NCBI GenBank assembly: GCA_018268255.1
Contig: JAFDWX010000001.1
Span: 434,001-498,000 of the forward strand
DNA: 64,000 nt
Source of the DNA: Armatimonadota bacterium
Lineage (GTDB): Bacteria > Armatimonadota > Fimbriimonadia > Fimbriimonadales > Fimbriimonadaceae
Direction: 5' to 3'
Under the pieces are notes generated by a model. It saw only the letters and a program-made list of their open reading frames with translations. It ran no database searches and was not told the origin of the DNA. Below, piece by piece: positions 37,014-42,738 of the stretch. The translations under genes and the position numbers were made by a program. Position 1 is the first letter of the stretch, and each line of letters starts with the position of its first letter.

Positions 37014-37036
37014 GTATTTACCGCTCCTTTAGTTTC

Positions 37037-37075
37037 AGGGCTTCCTCGCTAAGGCGAAGGAGCCCTGTCGGTTTT
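37037..37075 (+). terminator. Terminator-like hairpin after the PEP-CTERM gene
   Basis: AGGGCT (37037-37042) pairs with AGCCCT (37061-37066), and the inner arms TCCTCGC and GCGAAGG pair with mismatches. A short T4 run at 37072-37075 follows. Confidence 0.55.
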
Positions 37076-37134
37076 GATACGCGATCAACATCCAAAATTC
37101 GCTGTAGAATTTGGTTGGAGCGATCGATATAGCA

Positions 37135-38214
37135 GTGACGAATAAACCTCTCAAAGTCGGCATCGTAGGTTGCGGAGCCATCTTTTCCACACACGCCGAC
37201 GCACTCAAAGAAATCAGCGGCGCAGACCTTTTTGGTGCCTGTGACATTGTGCCCGAGCGGGCTCAGACGATGGCGGAGAAGTACGGGGTCCGTCCCTTCT
37301 CGAAACTCAGCCAGATGCTTCCGCACGTGGATATGGTCACTGTCGCGGTGCCTTCTGGGCTCCATGCACAATTGGCAACCCAAGCGGTTAAGGCAGGAAA
37401 AATCACCTTGGTCGAGAAGCCGATCGATGTCAATCTGCGGAAGGCAGAAGCATTGGTGCAACTAGCAAAGGACAAGAAAGTCCCGTTGGGAGTGATCAGC
37501 CAGCACCGATTTGCCAAGGATATCCAGCGAGTGAGGGAGGCGATTCAATCCGGCGAGCTGGGCAAGCTCTACCAAGCGGACGTTGTCGTCAAGTGGCTGA
37601 GGACCCAAGCCTATTACGACAGTGGTGAGTGGCGCGGCACTCACAAGCTGGATGGCGGCTGTCTGATGAATCAAACTGTCCACTATATCGACATGCTGCA
37701 GTGGATCACGGGTGGAGTCAAAGCGGTCCAAGCAATGATGAAGACTGCTGCTCACGACATGGAGGCCGAAGACATAGCCTATGCGCTGGTCGAATTCAAG
37801 AACGGTGCACTCGGGCTGATCCACGGCAGTACCTGCTGCTATCCAGGTTTCTCGGAGCGGATCGAGGTCCACGGAGCCCATGGATCCGTGATGCTGGAAG
37901 GCGACACCATTCGGCTCTGGTCTATCGACCCAGCTAGTGTGGGTAACGGAAAGTACGGAAACGGGGTCAATGCACAGCCAACTCCTAACCACTCCATGCA
38001 CGAACTAGCGGCCGGAAATCCGACTGGAGCAAGCGACCCGACTGCTATCTGGGGCGAACAGCACAAACTCCAAATTCAGGATTTTGTAGATTCTGTTCAC
38101 TCCGGCAAAAGGCCGTTCATTGCCGGTGAGGATGCACTCGAGCCGCTCAAGATCATTCGCGCAATCTACAAGAGTGCGAGTAAAAAGGGGCGGAGGATCG
38201 AGGTCAATCCGTGA
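37135..38214 (+). CDS. Gfo/Idh/MocA family oxidoreductase
   Basis: 359 residues from the GTG at 37135; a TTG at 37111 adds eight unlikely residues and directly follows a TAGAAT hexamer at 37105. N-terminal Rossmann NAD(P) domain (KVGIVGCGAIFSTHADAL) and the family EKP motif in LVEKPIDVNLRKAE, then the alpha/beta substrate domain with GGCLMNQTVHYIDML. Oxidises or reduces a sugar, cyclitol or nucleotide sugar. First of four overlapping genes; the next starts inside its stop codon. Confidence 0.88.
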   Translation: MTNKPLKVGIVGCGAIFSTHADALKEISGADLFGACDIVPERAQTMAEKYGVRPFSKLSQMLPHVDMVTVAVPSGLHAQLATQAVKAGKITLVEKPIDVNLRKAEALVQLAKDKKVPLGVISQHRFAKDIQRVREAIQSGELGKLYQADVVVKWLRTQAYYDSGEWRGTHKLDGGCLMNQTVHYIDMLQWITGGVKAVQAMMKTAAHDMEAEDIAYALVEFKNGALGLIHGSTCCYPGFSERIEVHGAHGSVMLEGDTIRLWSIDPASVGNGKYGNGVNAQPTPNHSMHELAAGNPTGASDPTAIWGEQHKLQIQDFVDSVHSGKRPFIAGEDALEPLKIIRAIYKSASKKGRRIEVNP

Positions 38215-38942
38215 TCCGATTCGGGGTCTGCGTTCCGTACAATCTGGTAACGAGCGCGTTGAGACTGGGGGCCGATTATGCCGAGGTGCCGGGCCACTCT
38301 GCAGCGGAATTTGTTGCCCAACAGCAAGATCAACTCCCCAGCAGCATCGAAGCTACCAACTTGTTTTTTCCGGAGGGATACAATTTGTTTTCCGATCCGG
38401 AAGGTAAGATCGTGGCGCACGCAAAGACAGCCATCGCCGCCGCCTCCAAACTCGGAGTCAAGGTGATGGTTTTGGGTAGTGGAGGTGCGCGCCGCGCTCC
38501 AGCGGAGATGGACCCTGACGAAGCGCTGGAGAAGTTCGTGCTGTGGGCGTACCAATTGGACGATCTCGCGGCCCAATTCAAGATGCGCGTTGCTCCGGAA
38601 TCCCTTTCGCCCGAAGAAACGAACGTTGGGACCGAGCTTCGGCCCCTGGCGCACCTCCTGCTCCACAAGGGACTCGCTTTTACGGCCGATTCGCGGCACA
38701 TCCTCCGAGAGTTGACCACAATTTCAAAAGCGATTCCCGCGACACCCATTCACGTGCACCTGGCCATGCCCGATGGGTCGCCGCCTCGGGCTCATTCGCT
38801 GGAACTTCAGAGCTTTGCGGCCCGGCTCCTAGATTTGGGGTACTCAGGTCGGGTCTCGCTGGAGTGTCGCTGGACAGACTTTGAAAGCGAACTTCCCGCA
38901 GCGCTCAGTGCAGCACGAAACCTGTTTCGGGGAGCCGCTTGA
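38211..38942 (+). CDS. Sugar phosphate isomerase/epimerase-like TIM barrel
   Basis: 243 residues, GTG start overlapping the dehydrogenase stop (GTGA). AP-endonuclease-2/xylose-isomerase-like barrel: LGADYAEVPG, a metal Glu in RVAPESLSPEETN, the His in IHVHLAMPDG and the late Glu in RVSLECRW. Likely isomerises or epimerises the product or substrate of the neighbouring dehydrogenase. Confidence 0.75.
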   Translation: MIRFGVCVPYNLVTSALRLGADYAEVPGHSAAEFVAQQQDQLPSSIEATNLFFPEGYNLFSDPEGKIVAHAKTAIAAASKLGVKVMVLGSGGARRAPAEMDPDEALEKFVLWAYQLDDLAAQFKMRVAPESLSPEETNVGTELRPLAHLLLHKGLAFTADSRHILRELTTISKAIPATPIHVHLAMPDGSPPRAHSLELQSFAARLLDLGYSGRVSLECRWTDFESELPAALSAARNLFRGAA

Positions 38943-39634
38943 TCGCGGTCGTTCCAGCTGCGGGGCTGGGCACCCGAATGGCGGAGATCACCGGAGGCGA
39001 ACCCAAAGAACTCCTGCCGCTGGGCGGGGTCACTGTCATAGAACATGTCCTGAATGAAGTACTGGCGGTGGCCGACAGGGCGATCGTCGTGGTCTCTCCG
39101 GCCAAGCGATCCGTGATGGACCGTCTCGAAAACATGGGCCATATAGAATTCGCCCTCCAACTGACTCCCGCAGGGTTTGCCGACGCTTTGGCGTGTGCTG
39201 GCAAACAGGATGAGGATGTTCTCATCGCAGTGCCCGATGTTGTGCTCCGGGGACAGCTCATTTCGCGATTGGCCGAGTCCAGCGCTGGTGCAGCCGTCGC
39301 TTACCGGAACATCCAACCGGAACACCGCCATCGCTACGGGATTTTGGAAATGGATGAAAACCATAGGGTGGCCAGAATCATCGAGAAGCCGATGGAAGGC
39401 CAAACAGAGAGCTGTTGCGCGATTGCAGGAAGATGGTTCCTGTCTCGAGCTCTGTGGAATCGGTTCATCGACTGGGCCGTATCCCATGGTTCCCAGAGCG
39501 TGACGGATTTCCTCGCCAGTAGAGTCGAACTTGGTGAACAAGTCCAAAGCTGTCCCCTTCTCGAGGGCGAAGACCTGTTCGATTGCGGGTCGGTGGACGG
39601 ATATCGAGCCGCAGTGGAGGCTCTTGGTCCATGA
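38939..39634 (+). CDS. Sugar-1-phosphate nucleotidyltransferase
   Basis: 231 residues, TTG start in a 4-bp overlap. Begins IAVVPAAGLGTRMAE, the G-x-G-T-R loop of glucose-1-phosphate uridylyl/thymidylyltransferases, followed by EPKELLPLGG with the catalytic Lys, and IEKP later. It joins NTP and a sugar-1-phosphate to make an NDP-sugar. The following GHMP kinase could supply that sugar-1-phosphate. Confidence 0.8.
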   Translation: MIAVVPAAGLGTRMAEITGGEPKELLPLGGVTVIEHVLNEVLAVADRAIVVVSPAKRSVMDRLENMGHIEFALQLTPAGFADALACAGKQDEDVLIAVPDVVLRGQLISRLAESSAGAAVAYRNIQPEHRHRYGILEMDENHRVARIIEKPMEGQTESCCAIAGRWFLSRALWNRFIDWAVSHGSQSVTDFLASRVELGEQVQSCPLLEGEDLFDCGSVDGYRAAVEALGP

Positions 39635-40674
39635 AAATCCGCACCTCAGCCCCGGGCCGATGCGGAATGGTCGGCAACCCGAGCGACATTTACGGAGGAT
39701 TCGTTGTGTCTTGCTCGGTTCCGCTTCGGGCACATTGCACTCTCGAACTTGGAGGATCTGGAGCCCTGCCGGATGACACTCGAATTTGGGATGCCGTGAT
39801 GGCGAGGTTCCCGCTGGGCGGAACCTCGGTTGAGTGGACAACGGACATTCCGAAATCGCGAGGAATCTCCGGATCGACAGCTTTGCTCGCGGCCACGCTT
39901 TTGGCTGTGCTCATCGCCCGCGCCGACGATCCAGCGTCGGTGTTCTCGATGCTTGGCGAGAGCCCGGGCCGTCGGGGGCGGAGTTCCGACGAAGGAGGAA
40001 CGAGGGTGTGGCTCGGGCCCGGCGGCCCAGAGACCGGACCGCTTTCGGAGCTTTGGAGAACAAGTTTTGCGGAACTTGTCCGGGACGTCGAACTCAACGA
40101 TGCGGGGATTATCTGCGGATACCAAGATGCGCTCATGATCTCCCACGGCGGCCTAAGGTGGATGGACTTTGCCGGGAAGCACCCGATCGACTCGGGTCCG
40201 CCGCCGACCACGGAGGAAATTAGCTGCGGTATCTCGGCTGATGATGGTGGTTTGCCATTCCTGCTCATTTCCACGGATGTCGAGCGGCTGAGCGGAGGTG
40301 TGCACGGTCCGATGCGTGAGCGATGGCTCAATGGGGATCAGCAGGTCGTGCAGGCCATGGATCGTATTGCCGAACTTGGGCGATTGGGACGAACATTTCT
40401 TGAATCTGGTGATCTCTACAGCCTGGGTCAGGCAATGACTGAGAATCATGCATTGGTCGCTGAACTCGGTGGCTCCGGCGCGGAAATCGACCATCTTATC
40501 GCCGAATGCTTGGCAAACGGCGCAACCAGCGCAAAGCTCGCCGGGGCTGGCCTCGGTGGCACCGTGATCGCACTCACGCAGGATCCCGTGACCCTGACCA
40601 AGGCATTGTCTGGATGTGGATATCGGTTGTTTGAAAGGCCAGCGCCAACTTTCGGAGTCTCGATAGACTCGTGA
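39631..40674 (+). CDS. GHMP-family sugar kinase
   Basis: 347 residues from the ATG at 39631 (ATGA overlap with the nucleotidyltransferase). The N-terminal APGRCGMVGNPSDIYGG resembles the glucuronokinase/mevalonate kinase branch; the P-loop-like motif is PKSRGISGSTALLAA; the C-terminal GHMP motif is KLAGAGLGGTVIAL. Likely phosphorylates a sugar or sugar acid, perhaps at C1. The last gene of the four-gene unit. Confidence 0.78.
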   Translation: MKIRTSAPGRCGMVGNPSDIYGGFVVSCSVPLRAHCTLELGGSGALPDDTRIWDAVMARFPLGGTSVEWTTDIPKSRGISGSTALLAATLLAVLIARADDPASVFSMLGESPGRRGRSSDEGGTRVWLGPGGPETGPLSELWRTSFAELVRDVELNDAGIICGYQDALMISHGGLRWMDFAGKHPIDSGPPPTTEEISCGISADDGGLPFLLISTDVERLSGGVHGPMRERWLNGDQQVVQAMDRIAELGRLGRTFLESGDLYSLGQAMTENHALVAELGGSGAEIDHLIAECLANGATSAKLAGAGLGGTVIALTQDPVTLTKALSGCGYRLFERPAPTFGVSIDS

Positions 40675-40746: not shown

Positions 40747-42738
40747 GTGATCGTTCCACTCGTTCTAGCTGCCATGAGTCTTGCTCCCATAACAATCGTC
40801 GACTGTCCACCACCGGGGCCCAGTCCGTACTATCTCAGTAATCGGGCACCGCTCAAGGACGTTCCGCTGACAAAGCTTCCCGTTACAGCCTTCAAACCCG
40901 GTGGATGGCTCAAAAAATCACTGGAGCTTCAGCGGGACGGGTTGACGGGTCATCTCATGGAGATCTCCAAATGGCTGACCAAAGAGGACAACGCCTGGTT
41001 AAGTCCGACCGGTAAGGGCAAATACGGGTGGGAAGAGTTGCCCTATTGGTTGAGGGGCTATTCGCGAGTGGGTTATGTGCTGAACGACTCGAAGATGTTG
41101 GCAGAAACGAAGGTTTGGGTTGAGGGGACGATCAAATCTGCCCGACCGGATGGCGATTTCGGCCCAATCGTGGATCACCGAGGTGGCTTTCGAGACCTTT
41201 GGGCTCAAATGCTCATGCTGCAGGTTCTGCAAGGGTGGTACGAGTTCACGGGAGACAAGCGAGTCATCGACCTGATGACCAACTACTTCAAGTTCCAACT
41301 CACGGTGCCCGACGACAAATTCTTGAAGGACTATTGGGAGAACAGCCGGGGCGGAGACAACTTGGCTAGCGTCTACTGGCTCTATAACATCACGGGTGAC
41401 AAGTTCCTTCTTGAGCTCGGCACCAAAATCGACAAGAACACTGCGAATTGGCGACGGCTCGGGAGTCTGCCGAACTATCACAACGTGAATATCGCCGAGT
41501 GCTTCCGCGAGCCGGGGACCTATTACCTCCAAAGCCACAATCCGGCCGATTTGGAGGCGACATACCGCAATTTCGATTTCATCCGAGAGAAGTTCGGGCA
41601 GGTGCCTGGCGGAATGTTCGGCTCAGACGAAAACTGTCGTCCCGGGCACGACGATCCCCATCAGGCAACCGAGACTTGTGGGTTTGTCGAGCAGATATTG
41701 TCAAACGCGGTGCTCATGTCCATCACAGGCGATCCCAAGTGGGCCGCCAACTCCGAGGACGTGGCTTTCAACTCGCTGCCTGCGGCTTTGATGCCGGATT
41801 ACCGGTCACTTCGGTATCTCACAGCACCTAACATGGTGGTCAGTGATGCGAAAAACCACGCTCCTGGTATTGCCAATGCTGGTCCGTTCCTGGTGATGAA
41901 TCCGTTTGGCAGTCGATGCTGTCAGCACAACCACACGAGTTCGTGGACGAGCTACTTGGAAGGTTCATGGATGGCAACATCTGATAAGGGCCTGGCAGCT
42001 GTACTGCTCCACGAGGGTGAAGTTACGGCAAAGGTTGGCAGTGGGCAAGAGGTGGTCATTAAGACTAAAACCAAGTACCCATTCGAGGAAGATGTCGTGA
42101 TGACTGTGGAGACAAAATCAGCGCTCCGATTCCCGCTTTACATCCTGATACCATCTTGGGCGAAAGGCGCTACTGCGGCAGTCGCGGATCTCAATGTGGA
42201 AGCCGCTCCAGGGAAATACCTTTGTCTGGACCGCGAATGGAAGTCGGGTGATTCTGTTAAGTTGCATCTGCCCATGAAGCCCGAAGTGCATGTGTGGGAT
42301 CAAATGCGCGACAGCGTAAGCGTCAACTATGGTCCTCTCACCCTGTCCCTCAAAATCAAAGAGAAGTACAACGTGCTGGATGGCACGCAGGCCAGTCAAG
42401 GCGACTCTGGATGGATCGATGGCGTGGATAAGTCCAACTGGCCCACTTACGAGATTCTGCCGGATTCAAAGTGGAATTACGGCTTGGTTGCCGCACCAAC
42501 CTTCGAGGTCGTGCGAACGGCATGGCCTGCCGATGACTACCCATTCAGTTTGGAAACCTGTCCTCTTGAGGTGGTGACCACAGGGAAGCAGATTCCCGAT
42601 TGGGGGATCGATCAAGACTGGCTCTTGGCGATTTTGCCGAAGAGCCCTGTGAAGGTTACGACTCCCGACGAGCCAATCACGCTGGTGCCGATGGGAGCCG
42701 CGCGGTTGCGCATTTCGGCGTTTCCGGTTGTGAAGTAA
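40747..42738 (+). CDS. GH127-type glycosidase (beta-L-arabinofuranosidase family)
   Basis: 663 residues, GTG start, with a weak signal peptide (about 1-14 hydrophobic). Alpha/alpha-barrel followed by beta domains, as in the DUF1680/GH127 family. The zinc-cysteine active site known from Bifidobacterium HypBA1 (Glu, Cys, Cys, Cys) is present: E309 and C311 in ATETCGF and C391-C392 in GSRCCQHN. The enzyme should therefore be active with Cys as nucleophile, probably on arabinose-containing plant glycans, although GH127 relatives have other substrates. Confidence 0.85.
   Translation: MIVPLVLAAMSLAPITIVDCPPPGPSPYYLSNRAPLKDVPLTKLPVTAFKPGGWLKKSLELQRDGLTGHLMEISKWLTKEDNAWLSPTGKGKYGWEELPYWLRGYSRVGYVLNDSKMLAETKVWVEGTIKSARPDGDFGPIVDHRGGFRDLWAQMLMLQVLQGWYEFTGDKRVIDLMTNYFKFQLTVPDDKFLKDYWENSRGGDNLASVYWLYNITGDKFLLELGTKIDKNTANWRRLGSLPNYHNVNIAECFREPGTYYLQSHNPADLEATYRNFDFIREKFGQVPGGMFGSDENCRPGHDDPHQATETCGFVEQILSNAVLMSITGDPKWAANSEDVAFNSLPAALMPDYRSLRYLTAPNMVVSDAKNHAPGIANAGPFLVMNPFGSRCCQHNHTSSWTSYLEGSWMATSDKGLAAVLLHEGEVTAKVGSGQEVVIKTKTKYPFEEDVVMTVETKSALRFPLYILIPSWAKGATAAVADLNVEAAPGKYLCLDREWKSGDSVKLHLPMKPEVHVWDQMRDSVSVNYGPLTLSLKIKEKYNVLDGTQASQGDSGWIDGVDKSNWPTYEILPDSKWNYGLVAAPTFEVVRTAWPADDYPFSLETCPLEVVTTGKQIPDWGIDQDWLLAILPKSPVKVTTPDEPITLVPMGAARLRISAFPVVK

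Follow-up and report, generated by a model that had tools for sequence, protein, structure and literature searches.

What is made by four coupled sugar-metabolism genes in an Armatimonadota bacterium of the family Fimbriimonadaceae? The genes lie at positions 37135-40674 of a 64,000-nucleotide stretch (the window; assembly GCA_018268255.1, contig JAFDWX010000001.1, positions 434,001 to 498,000) of a 3.2 Mb genome. They encode, in order, a predicted dehydrogenase (Gfo), a TIM-barrel protein (TIM), a nucleotidyltransferase (NTP) and a kinase (KIN). An earlier note on this DNA proposed that the four enzymes could oxidise, isomerise, phosphorylate and activate a scavenged sugar or cyclitol by a new route. 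The arrangement of NTP and KIN matches that of GKUP, the bifunctional glucuronokinase/putative UDP-glucuronate pyrophosphorylase of zebrafish and Xenopus (PMC3938481), and salvage to a UDP-uronate, probably UDP-glucuronate, is therefore the best reading of the locus. The full proposal, that NTP and KIN are the prokaryotic equivalent of GKUP as two unfused proteins and would salvage a sugar acid to a UDP-uronate, with the Gfo and TIM enzymes acting before or after them, is about evenly balanced between being right and wrong.

Coupling of the four genes

The four genes are uninterrupted open reading frames (ORFs) on one strand, and each shares exactly 4 bp with the one that follows it: GTGA at 38211-38214 (Gfo/TIM), TTGA at 38939-38942 (TIM/NTP) and ATGA at 39631-39634 (NTP/KIN). 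The ORF coordinates and overlap sequences thus bear out the overlaps described in the earlier note, and such overlaps are, as read from sequence, a typical sign of translational coupling. Gfo (37135-38214, + strand, GTG start, with an alternative in-frame TTG at 37111) is a predicted Gfo/Idh/MocA NAD(P)-dependent dehydrogenase, WlbA/IolG-like, with Pfam scores of 108, 96 and 95 bits. TIM (38211-38942, + strand, GTG start; AP_endonuc_2, 42 bits) is a predicted sugar epimerase/isomerase resembling ketose 3-epimerases and IolO. NTP (38939-39634, + strand, TTG start, 231 aa; NTP_transferase, 63 bits) is a predicted short sugar-1-phosphate nucleotidyltransferase. KIN (39631-40674, + strand, ATG start; GHMP_kinases N and C) is a predicted GHMP sugar-1-kinase of a glucuronokinase-like family marked by GNPSDxYGG. 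The Pfam matches, including those to GFO_IDH_MocA, all exceed the cut-offs. None of the four ORFs is claimed in a scan with NCBIfam models, in which the matches to IolG, IolO, archaeal GlmU/GalU and mevalonate kinase fall far under the curated cut-offs.

Family placement of the kinase and the nucleotidyltransferase

The GHMP motifs are intact in all 23 aligned KIN sequences (that of the window and 22 relatives), which also have the family-specific signatures GNPSDxYGG and RxRWxxG. In a maximum-likelihood tree, KIN and its relatives form a clade (support 100/99) apart from HddA, GalK, MVK and ThrB, and HddA forms a clade of its own (99/90) that excludes KIN. KIN is thus not grouped with a non-sugar kinase. 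The sole glucuronokinase reference, both in the tree and in profile scoring, is Arabidopsis GLCAK1, in a sequence that is unconfirmed against the database record. This sequence falls inside the KIN clade on a long branch (2.49), shows GNPSD and RxRWxxGD motifs, and scores 156 bits with the KIN profile, as compared with 117 bits for an HddA-like protein, 81 and 80 bits for HddA and 59 bits for GalK. Both profile and tree are consistent with the resemblance to glucuronokinase that had been proposed for KIN. A search of viral contigs for another eukaryote-like glucuronokinase gives one weak, partial match. The best solved relatives of the KIN profile are heptokinases and mevalonate kinases, with HddA (3k85, 4n3o) at the top. 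The AlphaFold model of KIN has a predicted local distance difference test score (pLDDT) of 87.8. A fold search with this model gives WcbL (Z 33.8), GalK (Z 33.7) and MVK about equally, and was set aside as a source of substrate hints, since no choice can be made among tied folds.

KIN also contains an in-frame insert of about 33 codons (39943-40044, + strand; approximately residues 105-138) that is missing from all 22 aligned relatives. The insert has a G+C content of about 71%, sits in the loop that follows the ATP-binding helix, and is predicted to be disordered (pLDDT < 50 at residues 111-135).

NTP is a GalU/AglF/GlmU-type domain without a C-terminal extension. Its best match in the PDB is the UTP-glucose-1-phosphate uridylyltransferase 8b31 (E 4e-20), and GxGTRM...PKE, D100 and D215 are conserved. 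The protein is about 231-250 aa long in Fimbriimonadaceae versus about 300 aa, and GalU-like, in Chloroflexota. The KIN-adjacent nucleotidyltransferases of other phyla match GalU at 267 and 278 bits, under the cut-off of 326.8. The GKUP precedent, the KIN profile and the tree together support the part of the earlier proposal in which a sugar-1-kinase and a nucleotidyltransferase form a nucleotide sugar.

Conservation of the cluster

KIN homologues of Armatimonadota were collected and their flanks scanned with profiles; 24 KIN-bearing Fimbriimonadaceae were sampled. The closest named relatives of KIN come from metagenome-assembled genomes of Fimbriimonadaceae and Fimbriimonadia. NTP directly adjoins KIN on its upstream side in 18 of the 24; in one more the distance is 2 kb. 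TIM2, another TIM-barrel protein, is encoded within 6 kb of KIN in 15/24, as is TIM of the window type or a sister type (15/24), and Gfo is found within this distance in 9/24. At least one of these three is present at this range in 17/24. The usual layout is NTP-KIN-TIM2-Gfo-TIM, followed in some genomes by an esterase-like gene, and TIM2, Gfo and TIM share one operon in L071-L073, L079 and L080. Gene order and strand vary between relatives. An L-ribulokinase (AraB-type) gene stands divergently beside NTP-KIN in 5/24 (L066, L068, L069, L073, L079).

Beyond Armatimonadota, scanning named genomes detects relatives of KIN in Latescibacterota, Gemmatimonadota, Chloroflexota and, on one contig, a Thermoprotei archaeon; NTP lies immediately upstream in most of them. 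In Anaerolineales and related Chloroflexota, TIM2-NTP-KIN occurs in six loci, which links TIM2 with NTP-KIN in a further phylum. The association of the four genes exceeds chance, as NTP-KIN recurs across phyla and Gfo or TIM genes lie near KIN in most of the Fimbriimonadaceae sampled. The exact order Gfo-TIM-NTP-KIN is not seen in the sampled loci outside the window genome; the nearest orders are TIM-NTP-KIN in L070 and TIM2-Gfo-TIM-NTP in L190, with KIN 72 kb away. Of the earlier expectation about gene neighbourhood, co-occurrence thus stands and the fixed order does not.

The TIM2-Gfo-TIM group stands alone in L194, L195 and L197, in genomes without a KIN match. Because this group also occurs without KIN, and because orders differ among relatives, the four genes are two joined modules, NTP-KIN and TIM2-Gfo-TIM, rather than a fixed four-gene unit. 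The two other sampled genomes of the same genus have neither KIN nor a close Gfo or NTP, and the distribution of the cluster is therefore patchy. The two modules might even be functionally independent, with Gfo-TIM acting in catabolism, NTP-KIN making a nucleotide sugar, and nothing but the operon in common, as the occurrence of each alone and the varying order and strand would allow. This explanation is improbable, since Gfo or TIM genes accompany KIN in 17 of the 24 genomes, TIM2-NTP-KIN recurs in Chloroflexota, and the close relative G028 retains TIM2-Gfo-TIM-NTP head to tail.

In four other Armatimonadota contigs (L131, L133, L139, L164), KIN stands directly or nearly directly behind HddA-GmhA-GmhB. 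Each of these heptose-type clusters contains two GHMP kinases. These contigs bear on a different explanation, in which NTP-KIN follows the same salvage logic from an HddA-like ancestry and activates another sugar, such as D,D-heptose, L-arabinose, galactose or another neutral sugar. Four observations speak for it: the top rank of HddA among solved relatives in the sequence search with the KIN profile, the position of KIN in these contigs, the ribulokinase neighbour in five Fimbriimonadaceae, and the occurrence of arabinofuranosidases in the GH127 family (by its Pfam name), a member of which follows KIN in the window. However, the KIN clade is distinct from HddA and GalK, the unconfirmed GLCAK1 sequence outscores both, the HddA-GmhA-GmhB loci already own a heptokinase, and a profile search of the 30-48 kb region of the window detects neither GmhA nor GmhB. 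Activation of another sugar is therefore rather unlikely, yet it is the strongest competitor of uronate salvage.

Neighbours of the pair in other phyla

Among the co-directional genes beside NTP-KIN in the other phyla are those for glucuronate isomerase UxaC (513 bits against a cut-off of 387) and D-mannonate oxidoreductase (387 bits against 281), for KduD-like proteins, for KDPG aldolase and a PfkB resembling KDG kinase, and for nickel-dependent LarA racemases and a protein related to sugar-acid dehydratases. These few uronate-catabolism neighbours would also favour a uronate as the substrate. In a comparison of near and distant neighbours, which has small counts and a category chosen post hoc, LarA (4), KDPG aldolase (3) and enolase-type proteins (2) stand out near NTP-KIN and do not appear in the families listed for distant genes in these loci; PfkB is equally common far from the pair. 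A gene for a nickel-dependent LarA-type racemase follows NTP-KIN in Latescibacterota and Gemmatimonadota (L119:7488-8777, L122, L124, L126); that of L119 matches PF09861 at 202 bits. The LarA neighbours suggest a link to hydroxy acids.

The dehydrogenase and TIM-barrel module

The best PDB match of Gfo is 3q2k/3q2i (full length, E 3e-53), which we take to be WlbA, and the two have a common core, YYD..WRG..DGG..MNQ..HY.D. The substrate of WlbA is UDP-N-acetylglucosaminuronate (UDP-GlcNAcA), a UDP-uronate. The next matches are 8tdi, a glucuronide-3-dehydrogenase by its title, and then a Thermotoga-type dehydrogenase. Taken with the substrate of WlbA, these matches may also favour a uronate. The TIM profile matches TM_0416 (IolO; E 3.5e-11) and ketose 3-epimerases, and the AlphaFold model of TIM (pLDDT 92.8) matches D-tagatose 3-epimerase with Z 24.8 and a root-mean-square deviation of 2.5 over 243 aligned residues. 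Its metal ligands, assigned by motif as E130, D160, H183 and E218, are conserved. Solved relatives of TIM2 are distant. The window genome has a TIM2-TIM pair without Gfo on another contig, C5 (L198:6642-8233). This pair lies near a gene for an ABC sugar-transporter-type ATPase.

In a more specific form of the single linear route proposed earlier, Gfo would oxidise in the manner of IolG, TIM would epimerise in the manner of IolO, KIN would phosphorylate and NTP would activate, for example from inositol to a UDP-uronate independently of MIOX. Gfo does match the IolG model at 154 bits, TIM matches IolO/TM_0416, all four genes are translationally coupled, and MIOX is absent from the window genome. 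Nevertheless, the IolG score does not reach the cut-off of 355 and that of IolO is likewise far under its own, Gfo is nearer to WlbA than to IolG-type structures in the PDB search, the Gfo-TIM module is found without NTP-KIN, and UxaC, which would connect tagaturonate or fructuronate to uronates, is absent from the window genome. The kinase and nucleotidyltransferase part of this scheme stands, and the scheme as one line is very unlikely. Because the nearest solved relative of Gfo acts on a UDP-sugar, Gfo need not act first; because the Gfo/TIM module is also separable, oxidation may follow activation or serve glycoside cleavage.

Weighing of the proposed salvage pathway

From the directly established gene content, coupling, conservation, family placement and intact motifs, we infer the substrate, the nucleotide and the order of reactions as follows. 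KIN would use ATP to phosphorylate C1 of a free sugar acid, most likely D-glucuronate; NTP would couple the resulting 1-phosphate to a nucleotide, with UTP as the likeliest donor, and so yield UDP-glucuronate or a close analogue. The TIM2-Gfo-TIM module may release and adjust the sugar ahead of KIN, with the oxidation, elimination and hydration chemistry of the levoglucosan and flavonoid-glycoside operons discussed below. Alternatively, Gfo and TIM may modify the nucleotide sugar after NTP by a WlbA-like 3-oxidation. A wider claim is more doubtful and is offered tentatively: that this is a bacterial and archaeal glucuronokinase-pyrophosphorylase pathway, wired in Fimbriimonadaceae to Gfo and TIM enzymes, which needs neither MIOX nor UDP-glucose dehydrogenase to take a sugar acid derived from a glycoside or cyclitol to a UDP-sugar.

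Several points weigh against uronate salvage. The placement of GLCAK1, with its long branch and unconfirmed sequence, is a lead, and the fold by itself leaves KIN tied between WcbL, GalK and MVK. In G028, KIN lies 72 kb from NTP on the same contig. The position of KIN behind HddA-GmhA-GmhB in other Armatimonadota hints at a heptose-related role there, for which salvage of a uronate does not account. The uronate-related neighbours are few in about 60 loci, the category was chosen post hoc and many neighbours are housekeeping genes. There is also no visible need for salvage of UDP-glucuronate, because the window genome lacks MIOX and UxaC and has genes of the UDP-glucose dehydrogenase type. Of 61 genomes, only 2 have MIOX (PF05153), that of the window not being one of them, and a MIOX-linked route was dropped. 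UxaC likewise occurs in two of the 61, neither of which has a KIN match, and its co-occurrence with KIN among relatives was also given up. The window genome has two copies of NDP-sugar (UDP-glucose dehydrogenase-type) dehydrogenases, and the idea that salvage replaces a missing UDP-glucose dehydrogenase was abandoned.

Glucuronokinase has been described in plants and lower animals. In the literature searched, outside which most subscription journals lie, no description of a bacterial glucuronokinase or of this bacterial kinase family was found. If uronate salvage is correct, the pair is a prokaryotic counterpart of the eukaryotic glucuronate salvage pathway, a function is offered for a large family now labelled just 'GHMP kinase', and small enzymes become available that convert free sugar acids to UDP-uronates. 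The substrate of the KIN family would then be directly testable with two proteins.

Genes and elements beside the cluster

A predicted GH127-family glycosidase (40747-42738, + strand; Pfam GH127, 154 bits) follows KIN after a gap of 72 bp. It had been suggested to supply the sugar. A profile scan of the flanks in relatives detects no homologue of it close to the cluster, and its NCBIfam match, to aceric acid hydrolase, scores 80 against a cut-off of 950. This role was therefore dropped; the gene is probably outside the conserved system and merely a neighbour. A GC-rich inverted repeat, read by eye as AGGGCTTC...GAAGGAGCCCT, lies at 37036-37065, between a PEP-CTERM gene and the operon, and is a possible terminator of the upstream gene.

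Comparison with known systems

IolG and IolO belong to the Thermotoga inositol pathway. Gfo and TIM resemble these enzymes weakly, with scores far below the cut-offs, and the cluster lacks the other genes of that pathway. A dehydrogenase and two TIM-barrel enzymes cleave levoglucosan by oxidation, elimination and hydration in the lgd operon (PMC7676230), and the GlycDH-OGE operon of A. tumefaciens cleaves flavonoid glycosides by the same three steps (PMC10628242). The TIM2-Gfo-TIM group of the relatives has this composition, a dehydrogenase with two TIM-barrel 'sugar phosphate isomerases'. In contrast, the window has one TIM beside Gfo and its TIM2 homologue on C5, adds a kinase and a nucleotidyltransferase, and has a TIM that resembles ketose epimerases and IolO. 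Gfo resembles WlbA, a UDP-GlcNAcA 3-dehydrogenase, in sequence, over its full length and in the common core motifs, but the four coupled genes include no aminotransferase or acetyltransferase gene.

Heptose activation by HddA/GmhA/GmhB/HddC (WcbL) likewise combines a GHMP kinase with a nucleotidyltransferase, and the fold of KIN is close to that of WcbL; KIN differs in its separate clade and in the lack of GmhA and GmhB from its cluster. The plant system of GLCAK1 and UDP-sugar pyrophosphorylase, the genes of which are unlinked, has the kinase family of KIN (by the unconfirmed sequence) and probably its reaction. The pyrophosphorylase of plants has a broad specificity and is a different enzyme (PMC3938481).

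The closest counterpart is GKUP. A new route, as claimed earlier, is not established, since the kinase-nucleotidyltransferase pair has this eukaryotic precedent: the salvage logic of a kinase and a pyrophosphorylase is known, and for the two-gene NTP-KIN arrangement across several phyla no description in bacteria was found in the literature searched. As of 2014, only stand-alone pyrophosphorylases had been reported from bacteria and archaea (PMC3938481). Unlike GKUP, the predicted enzymes NTP and KIN are encoded by two ORFs overlapping by ATGA rather than being one polypeptide, and their genes are coupled to Gfo and TIM genes in a genome without MIOX. Zebrafish GKUP consists of an N-terminal bacterial-type nucleotidyltransferase of about 260 aa and a C-terminal glucuronokinase, and makes UDP-glucuronate, with a very low pyrophosphorylase activity in vitro (PMC3938481). 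NTP-KIN has the same order, a short nucleotidyltransferase and then a GHMP kinase, the same sizes, and the same logic by which a sugar 1-phosphate is converted to an NDP-sugar.

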